Shown piece by piece: positions 17,821 to 54,143 of a DNA stretch of 64,000 nt; position 1 is the first letter of the stretch, and every line of letters starts with the position of its first letter. Source of the stretch: Clostridiales bacterium Firm_14 (lineage in GTDB: Bacteria > Bacillota > Clostridia > Saccharofermentanales > Saccharofermentanaceae); contig LVAT01000020.1 in NCBI GenBank assembly GCA_001604135.1, positions 62,001-126,000 of the forward strand, read 5' to 3'. Position numbers and translations under genes: made by a program. Under the pieces are notes generated by a model that saw only the letters and a program-made list of their open reading frames with translations, was not told the origin of the DNA and did not search any database.

Positions 17821-17911
17821 TCCAGAAAAAAGTCCGACTATATCGGACAAAAATATGGTATTTTCGGGCCAAAGAGATGGAATTCCAGAAATAGTTCCGA
17901 CTGCGTCGGAC
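17821..17911. repeat. Phased inverted-word array A (word GTCCGA/TCGGAC), 2 units, 63-bp period
   Basis: TCCAGAAAAAAGTCCGACTATATCGGAC and TCCAGAAATAGTTCCGACTGCGTCGGAC; TCCAGA at 17821 and 17884, TCCGAC at 17833 and 17896, TCGGAC at 17843 and 17906, all 63 bp apart. Confidence 0.8.
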
Positions 17912-17962
17912 TTTTATCCGGAATTTACCGGAGCGTGAAGTGCCGATGCTTGAATTGATAGA

Positions 17963-19042
17963 TCACCCGAATGCCGAATAGTCGAATTCGCCCTTATTGC
18001 CGTCGATATCCTTGTAGTAGATTATCTTCTTCTCTGTATCGAACGATGTAAGATACTTGCCCCACAAGGGCGCGAAAAAGTCATCGTCAGCAGTATATTC
18101 GCTGCCGTTCCTGTCGCTCTTATAATGGCAGGCGACACAGTTTTCTTCCTTCTTAAAACCGCCTTCATTGTAGCGCTGGCTGTCTGTCATCATGAAATAA
18201 GACAAACTGTTGCCGGATTCCATAACAAAAGTTGGATCGACATGGTAGTTCTTTCCGTTTATCGTCACATAAGTCCATGCGTGTCCCTCACCGTCAATTT
18301 CACGGTTACCGCCGCATACGGTAGCATCGACGCCTGCCTGAAGGAGCAGGAACGAGAATGCTGTAGAACATTCAGCGCAGATACCGTGCTTAGTCGTGAA
18401 GAATCTGTATGCACAGATGCCCTGAACAGCTTCATCGTTCATCTTGTTATATGTATCGTAATCGTAAGTGTAATTGTTGGAGAAATAGATGTAGAGTGCG
18501 AGGATCTTCTCGACATCAGAATAATCGTCTCTTAAGTTCTCATTCAGGATATCGGTAATAAGCTTCTCGAATTCAGCTTCCTTCTCGGCCAGTTCTTCTT
18601 TCGGGATCTTATACTGGAATGTAGCCTTTCCGTCCTTAAATGCCCCCGCATAATTGGATTCAGTATAAACTTCGTACACGGGCTGGAATTTGTTCGGGAA
18701 CTGTCCGAGCATCCAGTCGTAATCACTCTCGGACTTTACCGCGAATTCATCTTCGCCGTTCTGGACAGCCTTTATATAGTTCTTGTAGGCATCATACATG
18801 TCTTCGCCCATGATATCCAGGAATATCGAAGACATAACGACAGGCTTATATTCATAGTGGCCACGGACCTCTTCAGTTGTCGTAGCAGCTTCCGTAGTCT
18901 CAAAGGTAATGACAGACGTCTCTTCACTAACGCTGCTTGTTGCCGTAGTCTGATCAATATAAGTAGAGCACCCGGTCAGGATGCCGGCTGCCATCAGAAC
19001 ACATAAACCACGGATCATTGATATTTTCATATTACTTCCCAC
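17963..19042 (-). CDS. Transglutaminase-like domain lipoprotein
   Basis: 359 aa; lipobox ILTGCS; catalytic HGICAECSTAF, HAWTYV, HVDPTF. Confidence 0.85.
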   Translation of the reverse strand: MGSNMKISMIRGLCVLMAAGILTGCSTYIDQTTATSSVSEETSVITFETTEAATTTEEVRGHYEYKPVVMSSIFLDIMGEDMYDAYKNYIKAVQNGEDEFAVKSESDYDWMLGQFPNKFQPVYEVYTESNYAGAFKDGKATFQYKIPKEELAEKEAEFEKLITDILNENLRDDYSDVEKILALYIYFSNNYTYDYDTYNKMNDEAVQGICAYRFFTTKHGICAECSTAFSFLLLQAGVDATVCGGNREIDGEGHAWTYVTINGKNYHVDPTFVMESGNSLSYFMMTDSQRYNEGGFKKEENCVACHYKSDRNGSEYTADDDFFAPLWGKYLTSFDTEKKIIYYKDIDGNKGEFDYSAFG

Positions 19043-19141
19043 AAGTCATATTTTCGCGACAGCATTATACTACAAGTATTATTGGATATTGTGGCAAATC
19101 ACAGACTTATCTCGTTCATCAGGCAGCTCTTAGAAGCTCTC

Positions 19142-19445
19142 ATATGTCTCAACTACGAGTTTTGCGGGGGTTTGAGATACAACTTTGGCTGTTGGTGTGT
19201 CTCAAGTAACGGTTTTCAAATGGTTTGAGATACAAATTCGACTGCAGATGTGTCTCAAATGATGATTATCACATGGTTAGAGATACAATTCCCTTCACTT
19301 TGTATCTTAATAGTGCGATTTCTTAAGGTTTGAGATACAATTCCCTTCACTTTGTATCTTAATAGTGCGATTTCTTAAGGTTTGAGACACAATTAGGTAA
19401 GCGTTTGTATCTCAAAAGCGCGATTTTTCAGGATTTGAGACACAT
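19142..19445. repeat. Phased inverted-word array B (TTGTATCTCAAA/TTTGAGATACAA), 6 pairs, 52-53-bp period
   Basis: TCTC cores of rightward words at 19147, 19200, 19253, 19305 and 19357 (TCTT), 19410; GAGA cores of inverted words at 19174, 19227, 19280, 19332, 19384, 19437. Confidence 0.92.
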
Positions 19446-19480
19446 TGGCACAAAACACCAACTGATCAACAGCACCTCTA

Positions 19481-21274
19481 TCAACCCAAGTTCTTCAGCG
19501 CCTCTAACGTCATCTCGCCGACGTTGTTTTCCGTATTGTGAGCAGTTTTCGAAAGTTCACCGTTAAACAGGACGAGTTTGCCGTCAGGCATACTGTTAAC
19601 GGCCCTTCTGGAGGCTGACAGCAAGCCCTTTTCAGGTTCCAAGATAACCGTCGGCACATGGCAGTCAGGGAGCAGCTCATAGAGCCTTACCAGGAGTTCC
19701 GGGTCTTTCGAGAATTCCAGAGACTGGGCAGTATTAAGATCAGGCTGCACGATGATCAGGCCCTTGATCTCATCCTGCCTCTCGATGCCTGTATAAAGCG
19801 ATATTATGCCTCCGATATCGTGTCCCCACAGATAGATGTTATCCATGTCGATCTCAGGAATGTAACGCATCTCATCGATGACAGCGAAGTGATCTAATAT
19901 CTGCTCGAAATAAACATCCGCAACAGTCTTAACGCCGCTGCCGCCTGAGCGCCTTATGATCTCACCTTCATGAGTATTCTTAACCTGGAGTGTGGCATAG
20001 CCGTTCTGGTTCAGCATGGTTGCGATCTCATTATACTGGGTCAGCTGGCTTCCAAACTCGCCGCGCATGACTATTGTCTTATGTGGACCGTTTCCTTCAG
20101 GAAGCGTCAGCAAGGCATTAATAACACTATCGTCGCGGAAGAACGTGACCTTTTTCTGATTGGAATTGACCTGCTTAACTACAGGTTTCCTTGTCTCATA
20201 ATCAAACGGAGCCTCGCGCTTTACGGGCGCTTCGATAATCGCTTCGTTTACTATCTCCTCGATTATGTTCTGCTCAGTCTCAGCAGCCTTCGGTTCGAGC
20301 ACGGAAAAGCCTGATATAACGATCAACGAGGCAAGGCTCATTGCTATTACCTTATAGCTCTTCTTTGCAGGATGCTTTATGCTTACGATCCTTCGCTTCA
20401 TTGACTTATAGCCGCTTCTCATTCCGGTCGTCATAGTGAACCTGTAGAATTCGGATCTTCTCTGCATCTGCATTACCAGAGTCTCGGCATAGGCCTCTGC
20501 ATAACCGTCGCCGTAAACACTTACGACTTCCTCATCACACGCCAGTTCGCAGTCACGTCCTGAGAGGATAAAAGCCGCCCAAATGACCGGGTTATACCAG
20601 TTAAGCGCGAGCACGAGATGCCTTACGATCACCCACACAAAGTCGCCGTGCTTATAATGGCAGGCTTCGTGACATATCGCATATTCACTTGTCCCGGAAG
20701 GATCAGAGTCCACATAGATCTTGTTAAAAAGCAGGAACGGCACGCCTCTGTGGGATATTGCATAAACCTTAAGGCCGCTCTTCGGATCCGTATCCGCAAA
20801 TCGCCTGTTCCTTCGGCAAAAGATAACGAAGCCTGCATTGTAAGCAGTCAGGATAACCACTGCCGCTGCCGTTACGGATATGTAGATGCCATTGAGGACC
20901 GCGCTGGTATTAACAGGCTTTCTTAAAGCCTTATGCGATGCTTCCATATTGTTTAACACATGATCCTGAACTGCATGATCCTGTTCGCCAGCCTGCTCGA
21001 AAACGTTATCTGCAGGGTCATTCTTTTCGAGATCAAGAACATCGTTTATATAAGCATTCTCATAAACGGCCTTCTCGACTGCTACAGGGATCAATGAGCT
21101 CAGTTCGTCTGCGACGGGAACGCTGATCTTAAGAAACGGAGATACGATCATGTAGATGGGAATCAGCAGCCAGATGGCATACTGGTGCCTTTTGAGCATT
21201 CTGCCGTTTGCAAGACGCCTTATGAGCATTATGGCTGATGCTATGAGCGTGACACCGATAATGTACCGCAGCAT
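19481..21274 (-). CDS. BlaR1/MecR1-like M56 metallopeptidase with C-terminal alpha/beta-hydrolase domain
   Basis: 597 aa; YAICHEACHYKHGDFVW (HExxH), ELACDEEVV; C-terminal region GHDIGGIISLYTGIERQDEIKGLIIVQPDL resembles the alpha/beta-hydrolase fold. Confidence 0.8.
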   Translation of the reverse strand: MLRYIIGVTLIASAIMLIRRLANGRMLKRHQYAIWLLIPIYMIVSPFLKISVPVADELSSLIPVAVEKAVYENAYINDVLDLEKNDPADNVFEQAGEQDHAVQDHVLNNMEASHKALRKPVNTSAVLNGIYISVTAAAVVILTAYNAGFVIFCRRNRRFADTDPKSGLKVYAISHRGVPFLLFNKIYVDSDPSGTSEYAICHEACHYKHGDFVWVIVRHLVLALNWYNPVIWAAFILSGRDCELACDEEVVSVYGDGYAEAYAETLVMQMQRRSEFYRFTMTTGMRSGYKSMKRRIVSIKHPAKKSYKVIAMSLASLIVISGFSVLEPKAAETEQNIIEEIVNEAIIEAPVKREAPFDYETRKPVVKQVNSNQKKVTFFRDDSVINALLTLPEGNGPHKTIVMRGEFGSQLTQYNEIATMLNQNGYATLQVKNTHEGEIIRRSGGSGVKTVADVYFEQILDHFAVIDEMRYIPEIDMDNIYLWGHDIGGIISLYTGIERQDEIKGLIIVQPDLNTAQSLEFSKDPELLVRLYELLPDCHVPTVILEPEKGLLSASRRAVNSMPDGKLVLFNGELSKTAHNTENNVGEMTLEALKNLG

Positions 21275-21275
21275 T

Positions 21276-21632
21276 TTATCCTTCCCTGATGATCCTTCGA
21301 AGCTCCGCTAACTGTTCATCCGTAAGCTGGTCGGAATCGATGAGATTGGAGATCATGAGGCCGACGTTGCCCTTATAGACCTTATCGAGGAAAGAAGTTG
21401 TCTCTTCAAGCTCTGCTTCAGTCCTGGCAACAGCGGGATGGAATCTCTTTGCCTTGTCTTCCTGAACGAAAGTAACAGCGCCCTTCTCAGTCATGCGCTT
21501 AAGCAAAGTGATTATGGTATTTTTGCCCCAGCCGGTGGCGGGACGAAGCTCCTTTGTGAGCTCTGTAATAGTCATGTCTCCATTGGTCCAAAGACAATCT
21601 GCAATCTTCCATTCTGAATCTGATAAACGCAT
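21276..21632 (-). CDS. BlaI/MecI/CopY family transcriptional repressor
   Basis: 118 aa; LSDSEWKIADCLWTNGDMTITELTKELRPATGWGKNTIITLLKRMTEKGAVTF. Confidence 0.93.
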   Translation of the reverse strand: MRLSDSEWKIADCLWTNGDMTITELTKELRPATGWGKNTIITLLKRMTEKGAVTFVQEDKAKRFHPAVARTEAELEETTSFLDKVYKGNVGLMISNLIDSDQLTDEQLAELRRIIREG

Positions 21633-21696
21633 CTAAAGTTCCTCCAGCTAATAAAAAGAATAACACTCAGGTAGACAGCTATCAACCGAATCTAAG

Positions 21697-22704
21697 TCAT
21701 GCGGCTTTAAGTCTCTTACGCTCTTCCCTGCGCTCTTTCCGGATGCGTCTCCGATACCTCGCTTCTTCGTGATCCCTTATGAAGATAAAGTAGATCACGC
21801 CCGCAAAGAAAGTATAGAGAGCAAGCATTATGAGGCTTGCGGCAGATGTCCTGTCATAGGCAAAAGACCCCATGAAGAACTGGTTCTGAAGATACATCAT
21901 GAGCGTCAGGTTCGTTCTGAAGAGGTCATAAGGACTGCTGATCATGGACGGGACATCATACATGCCGACTCCGTCAACGACAGTGATGACCGTTATGAAA
22001 AACAAAATCGGACGCATACAAGGAAGCGTTACGCGTAAGAAAGTCTGAGTCCTCGTGGCACCGTCGATCTCAGCCGCTTCCATTATTTCGACCGGCACAC
22101 CCGTAATGCCTGCAATGATATAGATAAAAGTGATACCGAAGTGGCTGTAAATACTTAAGAGGATTATGAAAAACCGATCTGACAGGAAGAACTTAAAATC
22201 ATCAGCCGTAAATCCGAATCCGTTCATCGACGCTGCCGCAACTACGAAGAACATTGTGCTTCCGACAGTCGCCATAAAGTGGCTCGTCAAAACAGAACCC
22301 ATACTTGTTCCGTCAACGAGCTTCGGGAAGAAGAACGCCGTCTTGTAAAGAAGCCTGCCCTTGATCTTCAGTCTTCTGTCAGTGATAACGGCAGCAAGCC
22401 AGAACGTGAAAATTAGCTCCGGAACGGCATAAGCCACCCACATGATCATCGTATTCCTGAACGCATCATGAAAAGATGTCGATTGGAATATCTCCATGAA
22501 ATTCTTGTACCATGGCTCACCGATCGAAGGCAGGAACTGGGGAGGTTCAGTCCTGCCCTGACCCTTTATGTAGCAGAATGCATAGTACACGGTGTTTGCG
22601 AGCGGATAGAAATGGAAGATCATGAACGCAGCAGCAAACGGGATCATGAAGATATAACCCCATTTGTTATAGTGACGTTCTATATTCCGATGCTTTCTTC
22701 CCAT
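21697..22704 (-). CDS. Carbohydrate ABC transporter permease (MalF/UgpA-like)
   Basis: 335 aa; six-TM permease with EAAxxDGAxxxQxFxxVTLP loop (EAAEIDGATRTQTFLRVTLPCMRP). Confidence 0.9.
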   Translation of the reverse strand: MGRKHRNIERHYNKWGYIFMIPFAAAFMIFHFYPLANTVYYAFCYIKGQGRTEPPQFLPSIGEPWYKNFMEIFQSTSFHDAFRNTMIMWVAYAVPELIFTFWLAAVITDRRLKIKGRLLYKTAFFFPKLVDGTSMGSVLTSHFMATVGSTMFFVVAAASMNGFGFTADDFKFFLSDRFFIILLSIYSHFGITFIYIIAGITGVPVEIMEAAEIDGATRTQTFLRVTLPCMRPILFFITVITVVDGVGMYDVPSMISSPYDLFRTNLTLMMYLQNQFFMGSFAYDRTSAASLIMLALYTFFAGVIYFIFIRDHEEARYRRRIRKERREERKRLKAA

Positions 22705-22873
22705 GCTTTTCCCGTTCCCAAGAAAACTATTTCAAGTACAATTTTATGCTGTGATTTTTGTGCAGGTACACGAATGTATACCGATATAATATCATTCGGT
22801 AGACACAAGTCAACCTTAATGCTATATTGACCATAACATTCACGGGGCGAGGTATGCTGCTACGAGTACCAAT

Positions 22874-23722
22874 GTGCTGACAAGAAAGATGACCAAGAGA
22901 AGAGATACTATCCTTAAGATAGTGTTCTACTTAGTATCGCTCCTTTTCACATTCTTCAGCTTCTACCCGTTTTTTCTCTTCCTCAAGGAATCCTACGACT
23001 ATACCTTCGTCGAAAAGCAGGTCTATATAGGCAAACTCGTTTCTGCTCATTACAAGCAGGCTTCAACTTACATCGACGGTTTCTGGAAGAATTACAAATA
23101 TCTCTTCATCGGACTGGGCAACTCGCTTCTGGTATCCGGCGTCAGCACGATCCTCACCGTATATTTCTCCGCCCTCACCGCATATGCGCTCACTGCCTAT
23201 AAATGGAAACTCAGACGTGCGTGCTACGTAATAATCATGTTCGCCATGATGATCCCTTCAACGATCTCCACTTATGGCTTTCTCCAGCTCATTTTCCAAA
23301 TGCGTCTGACAAATAAACTCTTCGTTTACATCCTTCCTGCCATGGCTTCGCCGATGACGGTCTTCTTCATGTGCATGTATCTACAGGCTTCACTTTCCAA
23401 AGAAATGATCCAGTCAGCAAGGATCGACGGCGCCGGAGAATTCCGCATCTTCAACCAGATCATCCTGCCCCTCATGAAGCCCGCCGCAGCAACCCAGGCG
23501 ATTTTCGCATTCGCCGCAAGCTGGAACGACGGCTGGATGCCCGGCATAACGATCGCCAAGATGGAGAAGAAAACTCTCCTGCTCATGTTCGGCCCCATCT
23601 TCTACCTCGACAGCAATGACTTCCTTGTAGTCATAGCATCCGTTATTCCTCTCCTGATCCTCTATGCCGTGTTATCGAGGCACATAGTCGAAGGATTAGC
23701 TTTGGGCGGGCTGAAAGAGTAA
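22874..23722 (+). CDS. Carbohydrate ABC transporter permease (MalG/UgpE-like)
   Basis: 282 aa; QSARIDGAGEFRIFNQIILPLMKPAAATQAIFAFAASWND, EAA loop. Confidence 0.9.
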   Translation: MLTRKMTKRRDTILKIVFYLVSLLFTFFSFYPFFLFLKESYDYTFVEKQVYIGKLVSAHYKQASTYIDGFWKNYKYLFIGLGNSLLVSGVSTILTVYFSALTAYALTAYKWKLRRACYVIIMFAMMIPSTISTYGFLQLIFQMRLTNKLFVYILPAMASPMTVFFMCMYLQASLSKEMIQSARIDGAGEFRIFNQIILPLMKPAAATQAIFAFAASWNDGWMPGITIAKMEKKTLLLMFGPIFYLDSNDFLVVIASVIPLLILYAVLSRHIVEGLALGGLKE

Positions 23723-23753
23723 AACTCCGTGGGTTTAGAGTAATTACTGTGGG

Positions 23754-23941
23754 TTTACGGATAAAAATGCCTTATTTTGAAAAATCGCACGTAAAATCAC
23801 GCCCCTTTTATCTGAACACAGTCTGAAATTACGGATAAATAAACGATATTCAAATAATTATCCGTAACTCAATACCTTAATGCGCTGCTTTTCGCTAAGA
23901 TTTACGGATATTTTTTGAAGTTTTTTGTTTTTATCCGTAAA
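23754..23941. repeat. Phased inverted-word array C (TTTACGGATAAA), 3 pairs, 73-74-bp period
   Basis: ACGGAT at 23757, 23831, 23904; inverted-word core CGTAA at 23790 (degenerate copy), 23863, 23936. Confidence 0.82.
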
Positions 23942-23945
23942 CGAA

Positions 23946-23977
23946 AAAACCGACTCCTAAAATCGCGGAGCCGGTTC
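23946..23977 (-). terminator. Terminator downstream of pyrG
   Basis: Minus strand GAACCGGCTCCGCGATTTTAGGAGTCGGTTTTTTCG: stem plus T-tract. Confidence 0.8.
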
Positions 23978-24001
23978 AATTACACACTTTATTTGTTGCA
24001 A

Positions 24002-25597
<1,596 letters not shown>

Positions 25598-25646
25598 TCA
25601 TCATCTCTTTTCTTGAATTAAAAATTTATTTTCTCTAAACAAAATT

Positions 25647-25688
25647 CTAAGTAATCCCCAGAGTTCGGAAACTCCGGGGGTTACTTAG
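25647..25688 (-). terminator. Hairpin at the 3' end of the glutamine synthetase gene
   Basis: CTAAGTAATCCCCAGAGTTCGGAAACTCCGGGGGTTACTTAG, long near-perfect stem. Confidence 0.7.
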
Positions 25689-25710
25689 TTGGGTGGAATA
25701 TGAGGATCTG

Positions 25711-27813
25711 TTATTTTACGCTGAAGAGCAGGTCGCCGTAAGAAGGAAGCGGCCAGCATTCCTTGGAGACATATGTCTCAGCTTCGTCAGCAGCCTTACG
25801 GATGTCGTTCATTGCTGTAATGACGTTGTCCTTGATTGATAAGCTCTCTGCGATGATGTCACCTTCGCCGCTTGCTGCGCTGATAGCCTTTTCGAGATCA
25901 TTAGCGCCGGCATAAACCTTATCAGCGAGATCTGAGAGCTTGGCGATGATGTCGCCTTCATAAGCGCATGCAGCTGAAGGAGCTACTGCCTTCTTGGCTG
26001 CGACTGCTCCGGAGAGCTTTGTCTCATAGCACTCGATTGCAGGAAGGATCATGCGGCGGCTCATCTCGAGCATTGTGTTAGCTTCAATAAGTACTGACTT
26101 GCTGTAGTTCTCGAGCATGATCTCGACTCTGGACTTGAGCTCTGCTTCTGTGAAGACCTTGTGAGCTGTGAGCATCTTTACGTTCTTCTCGTCAAGCAGG
26201 TGAGGCATACAGTCAGGTGTTGTCTTGTAGTTGGAAAGACCTCTTACCTCTGTAGCTTCCTTGACCCATGCATCGTCATAACCGTTGCCGTTGAAGAGGA
26301 TCCTCTTGTGATCCTTTATGGTCTTCTTGATCATGTCGTGAAGTGCTGTCTCGAAATCTTCAGCGCCTTCAAGTCTGTCTGCGTAGATCTTCAAAGACTC
26401 TGCTACAGCTGCGTTGAGCATCATGTTAGCGCAAGCGATGCTGTTGGAAGAACCAAGGCTTCTGAACTCGAACTTGTTGCCTGTGAAAGCGAAAGGTGAA
26501 GTTCTGTTACGGTCTGTTGTATCACGTGCGAAGCGAGGGAGTACGTCAACACCGAGCTTCATGATCTTCTTCTCAGCGCCCTCGTAAGGCTTGTCATTCT
26601 CAATTGCATCGAGGATAGCGGAGAGCTCATCACCGAGGAAGATGGAGATGATTGCCGGAGGTGCCTCATTAGCGCCCAATCTGTGGTCGTTGCCTGCTGT
26701 TGCAACGGAAAGTCTTAAGAGATCCTGGTAATCGTCAACTGCCTTGATTACTGCGCAGAGGAAGAGCAGGAACTGAGCGTTCTCATAAGGTGTAGCGCCG
26801 GGGCTAAGAAGGTTGATGCCTGTATCTGTAGCCATTGACCAGTTGTTGTGCTTGCCTGATCCGTTGACGCCTGCAAAAGGCTTCTCGTGAAGGAGGCAGA
26901 CAAGACCGTGGCGTGCAGCTACCTTCTGCATGATCTCCATCATGAGCTGGTTCTGGTCAGTAGCGATATTTGTTGAAGAATAGATCGGAGCGAGCTCGTG
27001 CTGTGCGGGAGCAACTTCGTTATGCTCTGTCTTAGCGAGGATACCGAGCTTCCAGAGTTCCTGGTTAAGATCGTTCATGAACTCCTGAACCTTGGGCTTG
27101 ATAACGCCGAAGTAATGGTCGTCCATCTCCTGTCCCTTGGGAGCCTTGGCACCGAAGAGCGTTCTTCCTGTGTACTTGATGTCAGGACGCTTGTCGTACA
27201 TTTCCTTTGTGATAAGGAAGTACTCCTGCTCAGGACCAACTGATGTATGAACATACTTAGCATCTTCGTTTCCGAAAAGCTTCAGGATACGGAGAGCTTG
27301 CTTATTCAAAGCTTCCATGGAACGGAGCAAAGGTGTCTTCTTATCAAGAGCCTCGCCTGTGTAAGAGCAGAATGCAGTAGGAATGCAGAGTGTCTTATCC
27401 TTGATGAAGGCATAAGATGTAGGATCCCATGCTGTATATCCTCTTGCCTCGAAAGTAGCTCTGATGCCGCCTGTCGGGAAAGAAGAAGCGTCAGGTTCGC
27501 CCTGGATCAGGTTCTTGCCGGAGAATGCCATGATGACGCCGCCGTCAGGAGAAGGCTCGATGAATGAATCGTGCTTCTCTGCTGTTACGCCTGTGAGAGG
27601 CTGGAACCAATGCGTGAAGTGTGTAGCTCCCTTTGACAAAGCCCAGTCACGCATTGCTGCAGCTACTTGCTCTGCTACTTCCGTATTGAGCTTAGCGCCC
27701 TCATCGATCGTCTTTCTGAGCGAATTGTAGACCTTATCGGATAAAACCGCTCTCATCACTCTGTCGTCGAATACGTTTTCACCGAACATTTCCGGTACAG
27801 AATTAGTTGCCAT
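25711..27813 (-). CDS. glnN: Glutamine synthetase type III
   Basis: 700 aa; [50 protein letters not shown] size and motifs. Confidence 0.97.
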
Positions 27814-27852
27814 ATATATTTCCTCCTAAAATTTAATACTTGTTTTTCTGAC

Positions 27853-29319: not shown

Positions 29320-29334
29320 AAGATCCTCCTGATA

Positions 29335-35034: not shown

Positions 35035-35059
35035 GTGGGTCGAAAGGCACTCATTTTGG

Positions 35060-35105
35060 TGTTGTGATGCGTCGCACACACATTTTCAAGTGTTGTGATG
35101 CGTCG
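35060..35105. repeat. Direct repeat TGTTGTGATGCGTCG x2
   Basis: Identical 15-mers at 35060 and 35091 (31-bp offset). Confidence 0.9.
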
Positions 35106-35114: not shown

Positions 35115-35378
35115 CGTACCGACAAATTTCTCATTTTTAAGTAAATTGTCGGTACGTTTATCGCGTTTAGGTGCTCGAAATGATCCACCGTACCGACATT
35201 TTTCACGGTAGTGAGCAAATTGTCGGTACGTTTTCGCTTTCTTAACTTCAAATCAACTTAAATGTACAGACATTTTTGCGGATAATCGTGAAATTGTCGG
35301 TACGCGCTCCGATTTTTAGGATCTACAGCATCCAAACGTACCGACAAAATCGGGCGTTTTCGCAATTTTGTCGGTATG
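35115..35378. repeat. Phased inverted-word array D (CGTACCGACAAA/TTTGTCGGTACG), 4 pairs, exact 74-bp period
   Basis: GTACCGACA at 35116, 35190, 35264 (GTACAGACA), 35338; TGTCGGTA at 35147, 35221, 35295, 35369; every interval is 74 bp. Confidence 0.95.
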
Positions 35379-40547: not shown

Positions 40548-40632
40548 GTCAGTTATTATACCAAAGAGACGGATTGGAAATAGCCTCTTCTCTATTTCGC
40601 GGTCCCTTAGGATCACTTCTGTCAGGACGTGA

Positions 40633-40675: not shown

Positions 40676-40703
40676 CATAATCAGGATATTAACGTGAGAG
40701 GTT

Positions 40704-41561: not shown

Positions 41562-41725
41562 GTGTAGATTCCTTTCTTCATTGAACTCACGGCGATTCTA
41601 TCATCAGGAGCAGCTCGAAAATGAGGACTGGAGTGAATGGTATCTTTCCCGTCGTAAACGGTATTGCGAACAGCTCAATGTTTATTTAGAATTCATAACA
41701 GATAATCTTAAGGAGCGTTCACAAA

Positions 41726-42427: not shown

Positions 42428-42428
42428 T

Positions 42429-43850: not shown

Positions 43851-43961
43851 TAAAGCCGCCTCATCAGAAATCAGAAGTTTTTTATTTGATTTTTGCCCAT
43901 TTTCGCGTTAGAATTCCTATTCTGCTTAAAAATCTTAGGGAAATAGGATAAATTTTTAATT

Positions 43962-45317: not shown

Positions 45318-45346
45318 TTGATCAAAGCCCGGCAGAGCAAAGGGTG

Positions 45347-45446
45347 AAATCGTACGTTTTTAATCATGAAAAAAGTACGATTCTACCGGTTGCAACTTGC
45401 AAGCATTCAAATCGTACGTTTTTAACCTCGAAAATGGTACGATTTT
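45347..45446. repeat. Phased inverted-word array E (AAATCGTACGTTTTT), 2 pairs, exact 62-bp period
   Basis: AAATCGTACG at 45347 and 45409; GTACGATT at 45375 and 45437; the inter-pair spacer keeps TTGCAACTT. Confidence 0.88.
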
Positions 45447-45467
45447 ACCATTTGCAACTTTCAATAA

Positions 45468-45494
45468 AAATGGCTGTCTTGAGACAGCCCTTAT
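45468..45494 (-). terminator. Terminator of the HD-GYP gene
   Basis: Minus strand GGGCTGTCTCAAGACAGCCATTTTTATT. Confidence 0.82.
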
Positions 45495-45497
45495 CAA

Positions 45498-47261
45498 TTA
45501 TCTTGCGTAATCCGTATTTTCGAACGATTCGTAAAGAGCGATGATCTCTTTCTTCAAGGAGATAAAAATGCGGCCCAGGTGCGGATCGAAGTGATGTCCC
45601 AGTTCCTGTCTGATGAGCTCAAAAGCATCATCGTAAGACATGGGATCCTTATAATAACGGCGGCTTGCCAGAGCATCGAATACATCTGCCAGAGCCATTA
45701 TCCTTGCTTCGAACGGGATGCTCTCTCCCCTTAACTGGTCAGGATAGCCGGTACCGTTATATTTTTCATGATGGTAGTGAGCGACGTTCGTAGCTACTCT
45801 TACGAATTCCTTGTCTTCAACGTCCTCAAGGACCTTGCTCATGATCTTCGCGCCGTATGGTGCGTGGATCTTCATCTTCTCATATTCTTCATCAGTGAGG
45901 CCGGACGGTTTTCTTAAGATGGAGTCATCAACGGCGATCTTGCCCAAGTCGTGGAGAGGCGCAGCGTTGATTACTGAATCCCAGTAATTCTCGCTCATGT
46001 TGTAATCGTCTAATTTCCTGAGATGCTCAACGAACAAAGCGACGCAGGCAGATGTTCTGTTGATGTGACCGCCCGTGGAGTTGTCACGTGATTCGATCAT
46101 GGCCGCCATGCCGAGGATGGTAGACATCTGCATCGACTTGGCTCTCTTTGTCTGACGCTCTACCTCACGCTTTAAGGACTCACCCTTGAAGCTCATTGAT
46201 TCGATCATGTTGTGCTGCTCTGTGTCGTCGGTGATCTCAACGAGATAGCCTGAAATGTGATTCCTGAACCCAAAATGGATAAAGCTTAATTCGCACTCAA
46301 GGAACCTTCTCTCGCTGGGGCTTCTGTCATTGATAACGATGGATTTCTTATACTTGTTCTGCTTCTGATCGGATTCCTCGACTTCGGCGGCGCACTTTGC
46401 TACCCACTTAAGGAGATCTTTAAGGGCATAGTCTTTCGCGATGATCTTGGAATCGATCCTGGCATTGGCAATCTCAGGGAAGAACTTCTCAGACACGGGG
46501 TTGCTTCCGACATAGTTATATTTCTTGTCGAAAACGATATATCCGAAAGTGCTGAGCTCATTGATCTTCTCTTGAACACTTAAGTTAACGTTATAGATCG
46601 TGGATCTTGCGACCACGTAATCAAGGATAAGCGTGCAGATAAGATAGAAGAACGGGATTATCTCATACTTCAGGCCGAAGAAGCGTGATCCGAGATAGAC
46701 GAGCATGACGCCGAACAGAGAACCGGCATATGTGACCATGAGCCTGAAGGAAGCACTTCGCTTTCCGAGATAAGTCAGGATGGTAAAGAATGCCGCAAGT
46801 CCGACTTCAACAGCCAGTATGATGTATCTGATGTAATAGATCTGTCCGGGTTCCTTTACGAGCGGAGAAGGCGCTCCGGGAACGAACTTAAGGTCTGCAT
46901 AGAAGAACGGGAATCTGTCAGTAAGGATCGTGGAGATAAACACAAAGAGGTTTATCAGAAGGATAACGACAGAGAACCATGTGGGGACCTTGGAATCCGA
47001 ATAGTCGATGAGGATATAAACGATAAGGAGCGGAAGGAATATACCGCCGACATAGGCAAGTGCGTTGGCTAAAACTGCTTCCTGAAGGTTTCTTGAGCAT
47101 GATAAAATGAAGTAACCGGAGTTACTGATCATGACACAAACTGACATTAGAATCTCAAGCGTATTGGCGCCCCGCCTCGAGAAGAGTACGAGCGCGAAAG
47201 TAGACAGCATGCTGAGTAGCATTACTACTCCCAATACAATAGAATATATACCCATGTTCAC
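45498..47261 (-). CDS. HD-GYP domain phosphodiesterase with 7TM and PAS-like N-terminus
   Basis: 587 aa; HINRTSACVALFVEHL, APLHDLGKIAV, HYHHEKYNGTGYPDQLRGESIPFEARIMALADVFDAL. Confidence 0.93.
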   Translation of the reverse strand: MNMGIYSIVLGVVMLLSMLSTFALVLFSRRGANTLEILMSVCVMISNSGYFILSCSRNLQEAVLANALAYVGGIFLPLLIVYILIDYSDSKVPTWFSVVILLINLFVFISTILTDRFPFFYADLKFVPGAPSPLVKEPGQIYYIRYIILAVEVGLAAFFTILTYLGKRSASFRLMVTYAGSLFGVMLVYLGSRFFGLKYEIIPFFYLICTLILDYVVARSTIYNVNLSVQEKINELSTFGYIVFDKKYNYVGSNPVSEKFFPEIANARIDSKIIAKDYALKDLLKWVAKCAAEVEESDQKQNKYKKSIVINDRSPSERRFLECELSFIHFGFRNHISGYLVEITDDTEQHNMIESMSFKGESLKREVERQTKRAKSMQMSTILGMAAMIESRDNSTGGHINRTSACVALFVEHLRKLDDYNMSENYWDSVINAAPLHDLGKIAVDDSILRKPSGLTDEEYEKMKIHAPYGAKIMSKVLEDVEDKEFVRVATNVAHYHHEKYNGTGYPDQLRGESIPFEARIMALADVFDALASRRYYKDPMSYDDAFELIRQELGHHFDPHLGRIFISLKKEIIALYESFENTDYAR

Positions 47262-47396
47262 CCTTGTTCACACACTATAAAGCACTTTACCGTATATATT
47301 TTACCGCACATTCGCTATAAAGTGTTATTATTTTTGCTGATAAGTTATGTATTTTTACTAAATTTGATGACAAAGAGAGGCTAAAAAGTCTGAAAA

Positions 47397-48389
47397 ATGC
47401 TTAAAGACGACGTACTGAATATTATCTATTGGGAAGAAGATTTCATCTCCGGCGAGGCCATAAGCCGGAAGCTGGGAGTCTCCAGAGCAGCGGTCAATTC
47501 TGCCGTAAAAGCTCTAAGGGATGAAGGCTATGAGATAACCTCATCGACCAATAAGGGCTATCTTCTGACCAAGAGCCCGGATATCCTCACAAAAGGCTCT
47601 GTCTCAGTGCATCTTCCTGAGAGCATATCCAAAAATGTCCATGTTTTCGAGTCCGTGGACTCCACAAATGATGTCCTGAAAGACATGGCCAGGAAGGGTG
47701 CACCTTCAGGCACGGTCGTTATATCCGACTGCCAGACAGGCGGAAAAGGCAGACGCGGCAGGAGCTTTGCCTCCCCCAAGGGCGTCGGGATTTATTTCTC
47801 CTACCTTTTCAAACCGGAATCAGGCTTAGATAAGATATCCAATCTCACGAGCTGGACCGCGATCGCGGTCTCTGACGCGATCTACAATGCCTACGGCATC
47901 GATTCTCAGGTCAAATGGGTAAACGATCTTCTCATGAACAGGAAAAAGATCTGCGGGATCCTGACAGAGGTTACGGTGGAGGCTGAGAGCGGTCTTATCG
48001 ATAACTGCATAATCGGCATCGGCATAAATGTCAATGAGACATCCTTCCCTGAGGAGATATCTCAGATAGCCACTTCGATCTCCATCGAGAACGGAGGAAA
48101 GACTTTCGACCGTTCGAAGCTTGCAGCCGAGCTCATCAAGGCTATGGGAGATCTTGCATACAGATGGCCTGACGATGAGTACTATCTTAGCCGTTACCGC
48201 CAGAGCAACGTTACCGTCGGATCCAGGATCGTAGCTTACCCGCAGCTCGCCGAGAACAGCGAAGGCCGTTCAGGCACTGCCATTGCCATCAACGAAGACT
48301 TCACTCTTAAGGTCAAGTTCGATGACGGTTCCATATCGGACCTCCGGAGCGGTGAAGTCAGTGTCAGGGGCCTTTACGGCTACACCTGA
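47397..48389 (+). CDS. birA: Bifunctional biotin--[acetyl-CoA-carboxylase] ligase/biotin operon repressor
   Basis: 330 aa; N-terminal HTH, STNDVLKDMARKGAPSGTVVISDCQTGGKGRRGRSFASPKGVGIYFS, VKWVNDLLMNRKKICGILTE. Confidence 0.95.
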   Translation: MLKDDVLNIIYWEEDFISGEAISRKLGVSRAAVNSAVKALRDEGYEITSSTNKGYLLTKSPDILTKGSVSVHLPESISKNVHVFESVDSTNDVLKDMARKGAPSGTVVISDCQTGGKGRRGRSFASPKGVGIYFSYLFKPESGLDKISNLTSWTAIAVSDAIYNAYGIDSQVKWVNDLLMNRKKICGILTEVTVEAESGLIDNCIIGIGINVNETSFPEEISQIATSISIENGGKTFDRSKLAAELIKAMGDLAYRWPDDEYYLSRYRQSNVTVGSRIVAYPQLAENSEGRSGTAIAINEDFTLKVKFDDGSISDLRSGEVSVRGLYGYT

Positions 48390-49109
48390 TCAGACGCAGA
48401 TATAATCCTTGATCCTGCTGAATTTTGAATCACCTATCCCGGTGACGTTCTTGATGTCTTCAACCGTCTTAAAAGGATTCTTCTTCCTGTAGTCGACTAT
48501 TGCCTGTGCTGTCACCTCGCCTATTCCGGGCAAGGTCTTAAGTTCATCTACTGCAGCAGTGTTGATGTTGACTATGGTGATGCTCGCTCCGCCGCTGTCA
48601 GCTGTCTGGCCCTGAAGGTTCCCCCACACATAAACACCCTCCTGCCTTATGATGTCGCCGCCGTTAAAGCCCTTCTCCACTTCGGCCTTCGAAGGGATAT
48701 ATATCGACATGTTGCCCGTTATCTGGTAAACGAAGTTTATATTATTCGCCGAGGCATCCTCTGTAAGCCCTCCGGCCTTCTCGATAATGTCATTTAGCAT
48801 TACGCCCTTCGGCGCTTCGTAGATCCCCGGCCTGTTAACCTCCCCGCAGATATAGATACTGATAAGCTGTATAGTCACGGCAGCAGATGAAGATGCCGCA
48901 TCATCAGACGCTACGGGCTTATGGCTTTCCGTCGGAACGATCTCACTTTCACTTACCGGTGCCGACCTGCCGCTCTTGAACGCATTGACAGTAATATCCC
49001 CGCTCACTTTGAACACAAACTTATATATGACACTCAGGATGATTACCAAAATGAATGCCAGTGGATAGATCAGTTTTCTGATTCTTGCTTTCGTGCTTTT
49101 CTTGATCAT
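48390..49109 (-). CDS. ComEA-like DNA-binding protein (SLBB + helix-hairpin-helix)
   Basis: Start inferred at MIKKSTKARIRKL (49109); ISIYICGEVNRPGIYEAPKGVMLNDIIEKAGG and NINTAAVDELKTLPGIGEVTAQAIVDYRKKNPFKTVEDIKNVTGIG. Confidence 0.92.
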   Translation of the reverse strand: MIKKSTKARIRKLIYPLAFILVIILSVIYKFVFKVSGDITVNAFKSGRSAPVSESEIVPTESHKPVASDDAASSSAAVTIQLISIYICGEVNRPGIYEAPKGVMLNDIIEKAGGLTEDASANNINFVYQITGNMSIYIPSKAEVEKGFNGGDIIRQEGVYVWGNLQGQTADSGGASITIVNINTAAVDELKTLPGIGEVTAQAIVDYRKKNPFKTVEDIKNVTGIGDSKFSRIKDYICV

Positions 49110-49130
49110 AGAAAAAGCATAACACCGTGC

Positions 49131-49152
49131 TTTGTCGGTTTTTTCCGACAAA
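49131..49152. repeat. Palindrome TTTGTCGG-TTTTTT-CCGACAAA
   Basis: 8-bp arms upstream of comEA; the adjacent rsfS terminator-like hairpin (49165-49193) contains another ACCGACAAGGA arm. Confidence 0.7.
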
Positions 49153-49223
49153 ATATAACAAAAACCGACAAGGAATCTCCCTGCCGGTCTCAAACATTAT
49201 TTTAAAATAATTACTAGAACGGA

Positions 49224-49568
49224 TTACTCTTCGCCTTCTCTGCGCTTTGTCTCCCAGAACTTCTCGATGTTGTAATTCTGGCGCTCTTCCCTGCCCATGA
49301 CATGAACTACAACGTCCTTATAGTCAAGGAGAATCCACTTGTCGCCGGAACGGCCTTCGATGTGGTCGGGAGTGATGTCGTAATCCTTCTTAAGGACATA
49401 CTCGACTTCATCTGCCAAAGACTTGATCTGTGTGGTCGAATTACCGCTTGCGAGAACGAAATAATCAGCGAGTACTGTCTTTCCTGTAAGGTCTATCGTC
49501 TCAATATCGATACCCTTCTTTGAATCAAGAATGTCAACGATCTTAGCGGCTAATTCTTTTGTGTCCAT
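49224..49568 (-). CDS. rsfS: Ribosome silencing factor
   Basis: 114 aa; DYFVLASGNSTTQIKSLADEVEYVLKKDYDITPDHIEGRSGDKWILLDYKDVVVHVM. Confidence 0.95.
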   Translation of the reverse strand: MDTKELAAKIVDILDSKKGIDIETIDLTGKTVLADYFVLASGNSTTQIKSLADEVEYVLKKDYDITPDHIEGRSGDKWILLDYKDVVVHVMGREERQNYNIEKFWETKRREGEE

Positions 49569-49618
49569 TATTTATCTCCTTGGAATTATTAATAGTTTGA
49601 TTGTATCACAATAACGTC

Positions 49619-50839
49619 TTACATTTGTAAGTCTTTCATCATGAGGACCGTCATCGGGTGGATATCCCTGCCCTGCGAGACGAACTTGTTCTTTACGGCT
49701 GAAGCGGTCATCCTCATCGCGCTGTCGAGATCGATCTCAGCAGCAGTCCTGATGGGTGTCAGATCCGTATAGTTTCTGGATGGTTCGATCTTGTCTGCCA
49801 GATATACGATCTTCTCCAGCAGTGTCATGTTGCCCCTGCCCGTTGTGTGATAGCAGATGGCATCAAGGATCTCCTTGTCTTCAATGCCGAATTCATCGCG
49901 CGCGAAAACTGCACCGGCCGGCGAATGCAGGAGCTTCTTCTCAGTGAACAGATCTCCTGAGTATTTCTTTGCAAGTTCCTGCTGCTTCTCTAGAGGGAGT
50001 TCTTTCGCGCAATCGTGAAGAGCGCCAGCGATAAGGGCCTTGTCCTTGTCGCAGCCGAATACGTCAGCAAGATGAGCGGACAGATAGCCTACGTTGAGCG
50101 TGTGCAGAAGCCTCTTGGCTCCGAGATACTTGTACATCCATACGGAGCACTCAAAGAACTGTTTACGGGCTTCGTCAGAAACGCCCTCGAGCTTTGTATT
50201 CTCAGTATAAAGAGCATGTCTTTTTATGAACTCTCTTGCAGGTTCCGGAACCATCGAAAAGTCACCGGAAGAAGTGATCGCGGACGAGGAACAGTCGACG
50301 CCGTTAAGACGGAAGATCTCCACCTTGCCTCCGAGATTCTTCCTGATGGAATCAGCGGCCTTATCAACATCGGTCGTATCACCTGGCCTTACAGCGGCAA
50401 GCAGAGCCGCATGGTTAAGGATCCCGCCCGGATTATACCAGGTCTCAAACGTGCCAAGCGTGTCAGAGCCCATGATCCAGAAGAATTCATGATTCTCCTC
50501 GGCCTTCTTTTTCTTGATGTCATTTGAGATAAGGAAATCTCTTATGTATTCATCAGACGTGAGCTTTTCGAGCACCACGGAAGTATAGCTTACTCCGGCT
50601 ATTCCGAACTCTATGTCGTTTACAAGACAGTTCTTGATGCCAAGTCCCTCTATGGTCTCCTTCATCATGTAGAGACGGTACGGGGGCGGAAGCTTATTTG
50701 TATAGAGCTTGAAATTATTTCTGACCGAAGGAATAACGATCACAAGGTCAATGAATCCGCTCTTCAATGCGGAATTGATCATTGCTATGTGACCGTCATG
50801 AACGGGATCGAATGAGCCTCCGTAGATGCCAATTCTCAT
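49619..50839 (-). CDS. nadD: Nicotinate-nucleotide adenylyltransferase fused to a YqeK-like HD domain
   Basis: 406 aa; MRIGIYGGSFDPVHDGHIAM; second half LLHTLNVGYLSAHLADVFGCDKDKALIAGALHDCAKELP...CYHTTGRGNMTLLEKIVYLADKIEPSRNY. Confidence 0.95.
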   Translation of the reverse strand: MRIGIYGGSFDPVHDGHIAMINSALKSGFIDLVIVIPSVRNNFKLYTNKLPPPYRLYMMKETIEGLGIKNCLVNDIEFGIAGVSYTSVVLEKLTSDEYIRDFLISNDIKKKKAEENHEFFWIMGSDTLGTFETWYNPGGILNHAALLAAVRPGDTTDVDKAADSIRKNLGGKVEIFRLNGVDCSSSAITSSGDFSMVPEPAREFIKRHALYTENTKLEGVSDEARKQFFECSVWMYKYLGAKRLLHTLNVGYLSAHLADVFGCDKDKALIAGALHDCAKELPLEKQQELAKKYSGDLFTEKKLLHSPAGAVFARDEFGIEDKEILDAICYHTTGRGNMTLLEKIVYLADKIEPSRNYTDLTPIRTAAEIDLDSAMRMTASAVKNKFVSQGRDIHPMTVLMMKDLQM

Positions 50840-50842
50840 TTA

Positions 50843-52096
50843 TTAACCGAGTGTCCTTCCTATGTCGTGGCGGAAGTGCATGTCCTTGAAGGAGATCTTT
50901 GCTACGCCTTCATATGCGCCGTCGATTGCCTCATCAAGAGTATCACCTTCATCGTATACACAGAGAACGCGTCCGCCGCTGGTAACGAGCTTGCCATCCT
51001 TAAGTGCGGTGCCTGCCTGGAATACGATCTTGCCGCAGGTATCGATGCCTTTGATCTCGTAGCCCTTAGCATAGCTCTGGGGATATCCGCCGGAAGCCAT
51101 AACGACAACGCAGGAACACTTATTCTTCCACTTGAAGTCGATCTGGTCGAGCTTGCCGTCAATAACAGCATCGACTATATCGAGGAGGCTGTTCTCCAGA
51201 AGCGGCAGTACTGCCTGTGCCTCAGGATCTCCGAAACGTGCGTTATATTCAACAACCTTAGGTCCTTCAGGAGTAAGCATGAGTCCGAAGTAGATGACAC
51301 CCTTAAAAGGTCTTCCCTCTTTCTTAAGAGCTTCGACTGTAGGTGTAATTATCTCGTTCTGGATGCGTGCCTTAAGCTCATCAGTCATGTCAGCGCCGGG
51401 TGTAACAGCTCCCATGCCGCCTGTGTTAAGGCCTTCGTCGTGATCGTATGCTCTCTTGTGGTCTCTGGAAGATACCATGGGAACACATGTATTGCCGTCA
51501 GAGAAAGCAAGGACTGTGAGCTCAGGTCCTGTCATGCATTCCTCGATAACGATCGTGGAACCTGCAGAACCGAACTTCTGGTCTTCCATCATGTCCTTTA
51601 CAGCCTGCTTAGCCTCATCCAGGTTCTGGGCGATGATAACGCCCTTGCCTAATGCCAGGCCATCGCACTTGATAACGATAGGCATCGGCTGTGTCTCAAG
51701 ATAAGCTAATGCTTTCTGCTCGTCATCGAAGATCTCATACTTTGCAGTAGGGATCGAATATTTCTTCATGAGCTGCTTGGAAAAAGCCTTGGAGCTCTCA
51801 ATGATCGCTGCATTAGCCTTGGGGCCGAAAGCTCTGAGGCCTGCTTCTTCCATCCTGTCGACCATACCGAGTGCGAGCGGATCGTCGGGAGCTACGAAAA
51901 CAAGATCAAACTGCTCTTTCTTCGCATACTCGACCATACCGTCGACATCAGTAGCCTTGATATTTACGCATGTTGCAATTGACGCGATACCGCCGTTGCC
52001 GGGCGCACAGTAAAGCTCCGTTACCCTGGGATCCTGCTTAAGCTTCCAGCAGATAACATGCTCTCTTCCGCCGCCGCCTACTACGAGTACCTTCAT
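50843..52096 (-). CDS. purD: Phosphoribosylamine--glycine ligase
   Basis: 417 aa; MKVLVVGGGGREHVICWKL, GPELTVLAFSDG, EYNARFGDPEAQAVLPLL. Confidence 0.97.
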   Translation of the reverse strand: MKVLVVGGGGREHVICWKLKQDPRVTELYCAPGNGGIASIATCVNIKATDVDGMVEYAKKEQFDLVFVAPDDPLALGMVDRMEEAGLRAFGPKANAAIIESSKAFSKQLMKKYSIPTAKYEIFDDEQKALAYLETQPMPIVIKCDGLALGKGVIIAQNLDEAKQAVKDMMEDQKFGSAGSTIVIEECMTGPELTVLAFSDGNTCVPMVSSRDHKRAYDHDEGLNTGGMGAVTPGADMTDELKARIQNEIITPTVEALKKEGRPFKGVIYFGLMLTPEGPKVVEYNARFGDPEAQAVLPLLENSLLDIVDAVIDGKLDQIDFKWKNKCSCVVVMASGGYPQSYAKGYEIKGIDTCGKIVFQAGTALKDGKLVTSGGRVLCVYDEGDTLDEAIDGAYEGVAKISFKDMHFRHDIGRTLG

Positions 52097-52131
52097 TAAA
52101 CTATTCCTCCGAAGTTAATATTTCGATTTGC

Positions 52132-53310
52132 TTATTTAAGATAATGCATCCAGGACTTAGCACCCGTAACAGCTGCAAGTGCCTCGATCTCCTTATGCTT
52201 GATTCCGTTAACGAGGATCGCCTCGTCGGAAAGATATACACAGCTGTAGCCCTTAACGACTACTTCTGCGGCATTATCAACTCTGATAACGATGTCTGCC
52301 GTGATCTCGTCATAAGGCGTGATCTCTACGCTCTCAGCTGTCCATGCCCTATTCTCGGAAGGGTTGCCCATTGCAGCTTCAAGAACGTCACCGCAAACAG
52401 CGGATGCCGTAGGAAGCGTGCCTGCACCCTGACCGTAGAACATAGCCTGGCCCAGGCTGTTACCGTCAACCATGATCGCATTGAATACGCCGTTGACGTT
52501 ATACAAGAGATTGCTCTTGTCGACCAAAGCGGGAGCAACGTAAGCGACAGGCTTTTCGCCAGCTTCATAGAGCGCAATGAGCTTGATGTCGCATCCGATC
52601 GCTCTGGCAAAAGCCATATCGTCTGTTGTGATAGCAGAAATGCCCTCAGCCGTAATCTTCTCAGGTGCGATGTATTCGCCGTCGTTTGCGATCGTTGAGA
52701 GGATCGAGAGCTTTCTTTGTGCATCGATACCGTCAATGTCAGCAGAAGGATTAGCCTCAGCAAAGCCGTTATCCTGAGCCTGCTTCAGAGCTGTAACGAA
52801 ATCAACGCCCTCATCCTTCATCTGTGAGAGGATGTAGTTCGTAGTGCCGTTAACGATACCTGCAATCCTTGTGATCTTGTTTGCTGCAAGGCACTTATAA
52901 AGAGGTCTGATGATCGGGATTCCGCCGCCTACTGCAGCCTCAAAAAGGTAGCAGCAATTGTTGTTCTTAGCGATCTCCAAGAGCTCAGGACCCTTTGTGG
53001 AAACAAGCTCCTTATTTGATGTTACAACGCTGATGCCTTTTGACAACGCGCGCTTTGTATATTCGTAAGCAATTCTCGCACCGCCTATGGTCTCAACTGC
53101 TATCTGGATATCGCTGTTGAAAACCTCATCAGCGTCATGTGTAACCAGGTTAGCAAATTTGCTGTCAGGGAAATCCCTGATGTCAAGGATGTACTTAACG
53201 TTGATCTCTTTGCCGATACGCTTGGAGATAACATCCTTGTTGACGTCCAGAGTCTCAGCAACGCCTGAACCGACCGTGCCGAAGCCCATAATTGCGATGT
53301 TAATAGCCAT
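52132..53310 (-). CDS. hom: Homoserine dehydrogenase
   Basis: 392 aa; IAIMGFGTVGSGVAETL, VTSNKELVSTKGPELLEIAKNNNCCYLFEAAVGGGIPIIRPL, GIVNGTTNYILSQM. Confidence 0.97.
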   Translation of the reverse strand: MAINIAIMGFGTVGSGVAETLDVNKDVISKRIGKEINVKYILDIRDFPDSKFANLVTHDADEVFNSDIQIAVETIGGARIAYEYTKRALSKGISVVTSNKELVSTKGPELLEIAKNNNCCYLFEAAVGGGIPIIRPLYKCLAANKITRIAGIVNGTTNYILSQMKDEGVDFVTALKQAQDNGFAEANPSADIDGIDAQRKLSILSTIANDGEYIAPEKITAEGISAITTDDMAFARAIGCDIKLIALYEAGEKPVAYVAPALVDKSNLLYNVNGVFNAIMVDGNSLGQAMFYGQGAGTLPTASAVCGDVLEAAMGNPSENRAWTAESVEITPYDEITADIVIRVDNAAEVVVKGYSCVYLSDEAILVNGIKHKEIEALAAVTGAKSWMHYLK

Positions 53311-53329
53311 TTCTTTATTGTTCCTTTCG

Positions 53330-53776
53330 TTATTCCCTGCTCAATACCATGCACTTGCGCACACCGGCGAGCTTAGAGATATCATTGATTATGTCGTCAA
53401 CGGTTCCGTACATCGATACGGTCTCAATGGAGATCGAGATATCGGCAAGACCGTTGATCGGGATATTCTGATTGATAGTCAGGATATTTGCGCGTGATTC
53501 CGCGATAGTCCTAATGATCTCAGACAAGATGCCCTGGAAGTTCTCAACGGACAGAAGGAGCGTAACCTTCTTGCCGCTGGCTGCCTCATAGAACGGCAGG
53601 ACTGAATCCTTATACTTGTAGTAAGCGCTTCTGGAAAGACCGGTCTTTCTGACCGCTTCGTTTACGGAAGTTGACTCACCGGTATTAAGGCGCTGCTTAA
53701 CTTCCATTACCTTAATGAAGACTTCAGGCAAAACTCTTTTGTCGACGAGGAAATATTCGGGGTTATCCTGATGCAT
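53330..53776 (-). CDS. ACT domain protein (PheB/UPF0735-like)
   Basis: 148 aa; LVDKRVLPEVFIKVMEVKQRL, GLSRSAYYKYKDSV, ACT-like C-terminus. Confidence 0.88.
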   Translation of the reverse strand: MHQDNPEYFLVDKRVLPEVFIKVMEVKQRLNTGESTSVNEAVRKTGLSRSAYYKYKDSVLPFYEAASGKKVTLLLSVENFQGILSEIIRTIAESRANILTINQNIPINGLADISISIETVSMYGTVDDIINDISKLAGVRKCMVLSRE

Positions 53777-53945
53777 AAGGCCAAGACCTTTCTATGAGAT
53801 TTCGCGCTCAAGTATACCTCCACAGACGGACATTTGTACGCGCCTGACAATATTAACACGATTATATGGCGTTTTCAACGCAAAAAGATTCATATTTGCT
53901 TATTAATAATAGCTTTTAAGTCTGTTGAACTCACCAAAATACGGG

Positions 53946-54143
53946 GTTGTATCTCAAACACCCGTAATGAGTGCTATTAAGATACAGTTCCAGCGTAATC
54001 TGTATCTCAAAAATCGTTGTTTTCGAGCTTTGAGACATAATAAACGTATCGCTGTATCTCATTTGCGGGAAAAGACGGCAATTAAGACACAAAGGCCATT
54101 GTGTTTGTATCTCAACCTGCTTTTTTTGATCAGTTGAGATACA
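53946..54143. repeat. Phased inverted-word array F (same TTGTATCTCAAA/TTTGAGATACAA word as array B), 4 pairs, 52-53-bp period
   Basis: GTATCTC at 53949, 54002, 54054, 54107; inverted cores (GATACA/GACAYA) at 53981, 54034, 54086, 54138. Confidence 0.9.

Follow-up and report, generated by a model that had tools for sequence, protein, structure and literature searches.

DNA sites at which several protein dimers bind in helical register are familiar in bacteria as phased operators and recombination sites, among them NrdR box pairs, Tn3-type res sites and Lrp wrapping sites. The dispersed repeats most similar in outline are the repetitive extragenic palindromic sequences (REPs), palindromic stem-loops of 20-40 bp in which complementarity is retained and a tag, GTAG or CGTC, is present (PMC3733652), and the bacterial interspersed mosaic elements (BIMEs), in which alternating units are regularly spaced and some of which bind proteins such as IHF and DNA gyrase (PMC2817692). 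BIMEs are composed of REPs and are mobilised by RAYT transposases. Here, we describe six intergenic arrays, designated A to F, from a stretch of 64,000 bp (the window; C20:62001-126000, contig LVAT01000020.1) of Clostridiales bacterium Firm_14, whose genome comprises 3.12 Mb in 45 contigs. In each array, a short word alternates with its reverse complement at a regular spacing.

The arrays resemble BIMEs and REPs in their regular alternating words, extragenic location, dispersed copies and species-specific families, and differ from them in that the half-sites lie 24-47 bp apart, at helical spacing and in near-fixed dyad number. With REP doublets forming hairpins (REPINs) and miniature inverted-repeat transposable elements (MITEs) they share short length, a non-coding nature, inverted ends, recent amplification and the coexistence of occupied and empty orthologous sites. 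Unlike these, they possess many internal half-sites rather than two ends, their words are conserved over random spacers, and neither target duplications nor decayed copies have been found. Phased multi-dimer sites are comparable in placing dimer sites integral turns apart, which would allow higher-order complexes on one DNA face, but such sites are single and stand beside their own genes, whereas the family represented by arrays B and F (termed F1) occurs as about a dozen dispersed copies, mostly at 3' ends. We found no description of such elements for this kind of bacterium in the open-access literature. Our preferred interpretation, held with modest confidence, is that the arrays are non-coding elements that disperse and provide helically phased sites for putative DNA-binding proteins, specific to each family, which would co-diverge with the words.

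Helical phasing and word conservation

A search blind to both word and period was applied to 858 kb of the source genome and 800 kb from four congeners (1.66 Mb in five genomes, amounting to about 28% of the source genome and smaller parts of the relatives); it required a 10-mer with at most one mismatch, a same-strand copy at 25-150 bp, an inverted copy within that interval and three or more seed hits. The search returned 38 arrays against none in Markov shuffles, and a looser detector setting across the 858 kb gave 48 clusters against 7. Array densities are biased because some stretches of the source genome were picked for holding F1 words. The six arrays of the initial annotation thus exist where they had been placed and are not products of chance; array A is the weakest of them and falls under the blind detector's threshold.

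The initial annotation had also proposed periods near five, six and seven helical turns, and this proposal is borne out in the sampled 1.66 Mb. Fundamental periods are not evenly spread but cluster at 51-53, 61-64 and 73-75 bp, with hardly any between; dominant periods mostly fall at these values or at their doubles, and few fall elsewhere. Class means, computed from 31 word families that each contributed a single value and that include those of congeners G007 and G008, are 51.98, 62.38 and 74.08 bp, corresponding to 4.95, 5.94 and 7.06 turns at 10.5 bp per turn; the whole-turn fit has P = 0.005 when the classes are conservatively counted as three independent values. In class I (arrays B and F), single half-sites alternate as - + - + with centre gaps of 28 and 24-25 bp, while in class III (arrays C and D and an array at C10:95338) the gaps are 27-30 and 44-47 bp. 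The 62-bp class (array A, probably E, and many arrays in relatives) often has direct half-site pairs 11-12 bp apart followed by an inverted pair. An inner gap of 26-30 bp is common to classes I and III and several 62-bp arrays, and the outer gap lies near 24, 35 or 45 bp, values that differ by roughly a single turn. An array of the close congener G005 has a series of 52-bp steps broken by one 74-bp step.

The F1 family illustrates how rigid this architecture can be. A scan of the entire source genome for F1 dyads, with at most one mismatch, yielded 42 dyads and 11 elements, only one chance-like dyad (C9:34185) lying outside the elements. Ten of the 11 elements have four dyads (- + - + - + - +, eight half-sites, about 196 bp) and array B has six; the inner gap is 28 bp in 41 of 45 instances and the outer gap 24 or 25 bp in 35 of 37, the mean period is 52.60 bp, and deviations in word spacing seldom exceed 1 bp. 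Between copies, word identity is 76-93%, with four core positions (AGA.A) invariant in 90 of 90 half-sites, whereas spacers in most copy pairs are 25-43% identical, equal to out-of-register controls; two copy pairs are closer, with spacers at 61% and 70%. Words and their spacing are therefore retained as the spacers diverge, as had been suggested from the window. No decayed F1 copies were detected in the 858 kb, where the best non-element match to the eight-word template scored 51 of 88, compared with 50 in shuffled sequence and 77-82 for intact elements.

One reading offered initially, that the inverted words form ordered hairpins or cruciforms, fares less well, as the arms of F1 dyads do not covary. 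Complementary positions number 406 in 45 inner-arm pairs versus 407.6 with shuffled partners, and 326 in 37 outer-arm pairs versus 332.8, and a T-to-C change at position 8, which occurs 17 times, is never found in both arms of one inner dyad. A hairpin or cruciform identity was rejected on this lack of covariation. Taken with the helical spacing and with loops that are 13-18 bases long and random in sequence, the result suggests that the words would be recognised in double-stranded form by a putative protein.

Dispersal of copies and turnover of words

Paralogous copies align as far as their outer words, where homology stops. The array families are thus copied, dispersed elements with sharp ends, contrary to the initial view that no copied sequence was involved. 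A common architecture with words that differ among arrays was borne out, but locus-specific words were not: B and F share the word of the genome-wide F1 family and a further copy of array E lies on a different contig (G000:C16, G000 being the source genome), so the words are better described as family-specific.

A case of spread comes from G007, in which a 117-bp element of the 62-bp class is present in 15 dispersed copies, all of equal length; nine of these are at least 95% identical, which argues that the elements spread. Eight TGTTG cores lie at 0, 12, 38, 50, 62, 74, 100 and 112, and just 2 of 40 core columns vary compared with 47 of 77 other columns (P = 7e-10). Some G007 copies have additional flank in common (GTGCTCTGTCA... 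and CAGAG...), so that the true ends of the element may fall outside the words, and at least one copy pair sits inside a larger duplication. Also in G007, near-identical AGTTACGGCANACTTACGGC arrays with a 63-bp period adjoin TGTTGAC elements at C1:118421-118582 and 150361-150525, the compound of array and element being duplicated 32 kb apart. Identical 39-bp dyads occur at several places in G016. In G068, class I dyads with the word TGTATCCCAAA lie within about 250 bp of the starts of five contigs (C4, C10, C33, C46 and C60), which might reflect interruption of the assembly by near-identical copies. As for an autonomous partner, neither isolated F1 dyads nor dyad pairs at gene-length spacing were found in the source genome, in whose 45 contigs a collapsed copy is possible.

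Orthologous gaps in G005 document presence and absence directly. Array B is missing there (438 bp in the source genome versus 32 bp in G005), as are array F (398 versus 188 bp) and the F1 element on C18 (362 versus 143 bp); the gap of array C contains an array of a different word in its place (279 versus 493 bp), and one G005 array is absent from the source genome (63 versus 232 bp). Array A and a TTTTACACCAA array are conserved at orthologous positions. In G008, the F gap contains two other arrays, one with four dyads of the word ACGGACACAAA and a period of 74 bp, and in the E and D gaps no such multi-dyad array was present in relatives with the neighbour located.

The expectation that architecture persists while words change among relatives was also upheld. 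Of 70 genomes from the genus, 18 contain a class I pattern, TGTATC-NN-AAA-N17-TTT-NN-GATACA with up to 2 mismatches, as does 1 of 48 order relatives; single matches are not taken as evidence because a reversed-pattern control reaches up to 2 per genome. The pattern occurs 58 times in G005, 31 times in the source genome, 10 times in G068 and 8 times in G054, and the NN letters are mainly TC in the source genome, GA in G005, CC in G068 and G054, TG in G062 and GG in G103. Class I geometry recurs with other words, namely TGTATCGAAAA in G005 (58 dyads), TGTATCGGAAA in G103 and TGTATACCAAA in G040, the last with four dyads and gaps of 27-28 and 25 bp. The F1 word itself was found elsewhere in the genome collection in only two unrelated genomes, none of 98 relatives had the F1 architecture in its exact form, and no arrays were found in 395 kb from order-level relatives; as far as sampled, the element families are restricted to the genus.

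Interpretation and rival explanations

Variation of the words by species at fixed spacing suggests a family of DNA-binding proteins. We envisage several families of non-coding elements, short (about 90-280 bp) and mobile or otherwise dispersing, each element being a row of inverted half-site pairs, usually two to four and in class I nearly always four dyads with eight half-sites. Placed integral helical turns apart, the dyads would all lie on the same side of the DNA, and each family would be bound by its own sequence-specific, self-associating protein, whose dimers on successive dyads could align on one face to build a higher-order complex, such as an octamer of half-site binders on class I. 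The specificity of the protein may drift among species, the whole site family following, and it is in this sense that we infer both protein binding and co-divergence with the binder.

Several observations weigh against this interpretation. No binding protein was found. The sampled multi-copy gene families are of ordinary kinds (ABC transporters, response regulators, BlaI-type repressors, metabolic or RNA-modifying enzymes, a zinc-ribbon protein and two families lacking any Pfam match), and none gave a conclusive candidate. No target-site duplication was recognised by eye in the flanks (exact ends being uncertain in G007), and transposition is consequently unproven. The conservation of the words could partly stem from selection for mobility rather than for function in place; moreover, the mismatch limit used to collect F1 half-sites is biased towards conserved sites, and the G007 core columns were defined through internal repetition of these very sequences. 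As for the periods, few values are independent, since families inside a class may share descent, the 62-bp class lies 0.6 bp below 63, and one palindromic family has a period of 64 bp. At C13:343308-343603 in the source genome, five palindromes (AAATCGAACT...AGTTCGATTT) follow one another at unphased steps of 66, 66, 49 and 90 bp; this array is of a different, hairpin-like kind.

The strongest rival holds that the arrays are non-autonomous MITE- or REP-like elements with no host role, whose words are sites for a trans-acting transposase and are conserved through repeated recent jumping. The recent multi-locus copies in G007, presence and absence at orthologous sites, the end of paralogue homology at the outer words, the identical G016 dyads, the contig-end matches in G068 and several class I elements that start with TG and finish with CA all fit this explanation. 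Against it stand the want of target-site duplications and of an autonomous copy, F1 dyads occurring only in elements of four to six dyads, and the absence of decayed copies despite saturated spacers, as dead MITEs should lose words and spacers alike; we consider it possible but on the unlikely side. Somewhat more doubtful is that the arrays are host regulatory or structural sites (insulators, nucleoid sites or domain anchors) selected at 3' ends and in convergent gaps and shaped by a fast-evolving binder. Retention of array A and the TTTTACACCAA array in G005, an intergenic placement beyond terminators with enrichment in convergent gaps, and the fact that the same gaps may hold different arrays in different species favour such a role, but most sites (B, E and F) are empty in close relatives, so that no given site is required, and the placement also fits plain avoidance of promoters and genes.

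Two further explanations have much less to commend them. Arrays of RNA hairpins or DNA cruciforms, serving as 3'-untranslated-region structure or terminators, would account for inverted words able to pair and for a location after genes; besides the uncorrelated arms and random loops of F1, RNA is not expected to show 10.5-bp steps, array D lies between two convergent terminator-like hairpins, and the window has no Rfam match, making this explanation very improbable. Local tandem duplication with slippage and neutral decay has in its favour one recent duplication within B, with units 97% identical, but is already contradicted by words conserved across loci over random spacers, by spacing rigid to about 1 bp and by fixed dyad number, and we give it hardly any credence.

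Returning to phased sites for family-specific proteins, a bolder version can be put forward only tentatively: the arrays may form a genus-specific phased multi-dyad class whose words are rewritten family-wide in each species, co-evolving with putative self-assembling proteins and acting as insulators or nucleoid anchors at transcription-unit ends. If the phased-site interpretation is correct, there would be dispersed bacterial repeats constrained by the helix turn and a drifting protein word rather than by a stem-loop, and bacterial intergenic gaps could be filled by an element kind that has gone unrecognised. The class I words form a natural series (TGTATC followed by TC, GA, CC, TG, GG or TGTATACC...), one architecture re-specified repeatedly within one genus, and would offer a direct handle on the binder and on the joint change of its specificity and dozens of sites.

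Several established identities were considered, most of which were rejected. Orientation alternates at regular extragenic spacing as in REPs and BIMEs, but the 45 inner and 37 outer F1 pairs do not keep a stem-loop by complementary changes, no GTAG or CGTC tag is present in the F1 elements inspected with their flanks, and the Y1 transposase family of the REP-associated tyrosine transposases (RAYTs; PF01797) was not found in the source genome or in six of seven relatives. The lack of a Y1 transposase in the source genome speaks against a RAYT-driven REP or BIME, and as the BIME palindrome, tag and RAYT are all wanting, we keep the working likeness, to a dispersing repeat with probable protein binding, separate from class membership. 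G007 has seven Y1 family matches on several contigs, six of them partial and two at contig ends. As for MITEs, dispersed copies with sharp common ends and recent amplification were indeed observed. CRISPR (clustered regularly interspaced short palindromic repeat) arrays, in which direct repeats share one orientation and are separated by unique spacers, were excluded, as half-sites alternate in orientation and the 13-18-bp spacers diverge in place between paralogues, and so were classical regulon operators, which stand singly at the promoters of several genes, given the absence of lone F1 dyads in the source genome and the depletion of divergent gaps. A phage or plasmid origin was set aside because the F1, D and TTTTACACCAA dyad patterns are absent from viral contigs; array D gave no phage match and array B no plasmid match.

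The six arrays and their surroundings

Array B (19143-19444) is a class I element of the F1 family, identified in the dyad scan, with six dyads TGTATCTCAAA-N17-TTTGAGATACA at 19143-19181, 19196-19234, 19249-19287, 19301-19339, 19353-19391 and 19406-19444; its 12 half-sites have gaps of 28 and 24-25 bp and a period of 52-53 bp, and the near-exact duplication noted above involves two units. Array F (53948-54143) has the same word and geometry in four dyads, or eight half-sites (53948-53986, 54001-54039, 54053-54091 and 54106-54143). The class III array D (35115-35378) comprises four dyads CGTACCGACAAA-N18-TTTGTCGGTACG (35115-35156, 35189-35230, 35263-35304 and 35337-35378) with gaps of 30 and 44 bp and a period of exactly 74 bp; given its position between the terminator-like hairpins, there is no obvious reason to expect read-through transcription. 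Immediately ahead of it, at 35048-35105, a 30-31-bp direct repeat (CACACATTTTAAGTGTTGTGATGCGTCGCA) is present in two copies. Array C (23754-23941), likewise of class III, has three dyads TTTACGGATAAA-N17-TTTATCCGTAAA with a period of 73-74 bp, at about 23754-23794 (where the second half-site is degenerate), 23828-23868 and 23901-23941.

Array E (45347-45464) has a period of 62 bp and two dyads, AATCGTACG / CGTACGATT, at about 45348-45382 and 45410-45446, accompanied by a TTGCAACTTGCAA motif. Array A (17821-17911) is an element of 62-63-bp period with nested words, TTCCGGAA / GTCCGAC, in two nested inverted pairs 63 bp apart; GTCCGAC lies at 17832-17838 and inverted at 17842-17848, and again at 17895-17901 and 17905-17911. 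Outside the window, GCCGGCTATAGCC / ACGGCTATAGCCGT palindromes at 64 bp are found at G000:C9:35283-35472 and G005:C1:1351824, possibly as one family across both species.

The neighbouring genes are ordinary (CTP synthase, a LysR regulator, MatE, Ham1, FeoB and a deacetylase), and the arrays are mostly situated just downstream of gene 3' ends. By mechanical open reading frame calls, convergent gaps make up 14 of 31 array gaps versus 56 of 331 overall, and divergent gaps 2 of 31 versus 79 of 331. Directly upstream of feoB, at 14994-15073, lies an imperfect inverted repeat of 39 nt (72%) interrupted by 2 nt, in a divergent gap of 833 bp whose G005 equivalent measures 834 bp.

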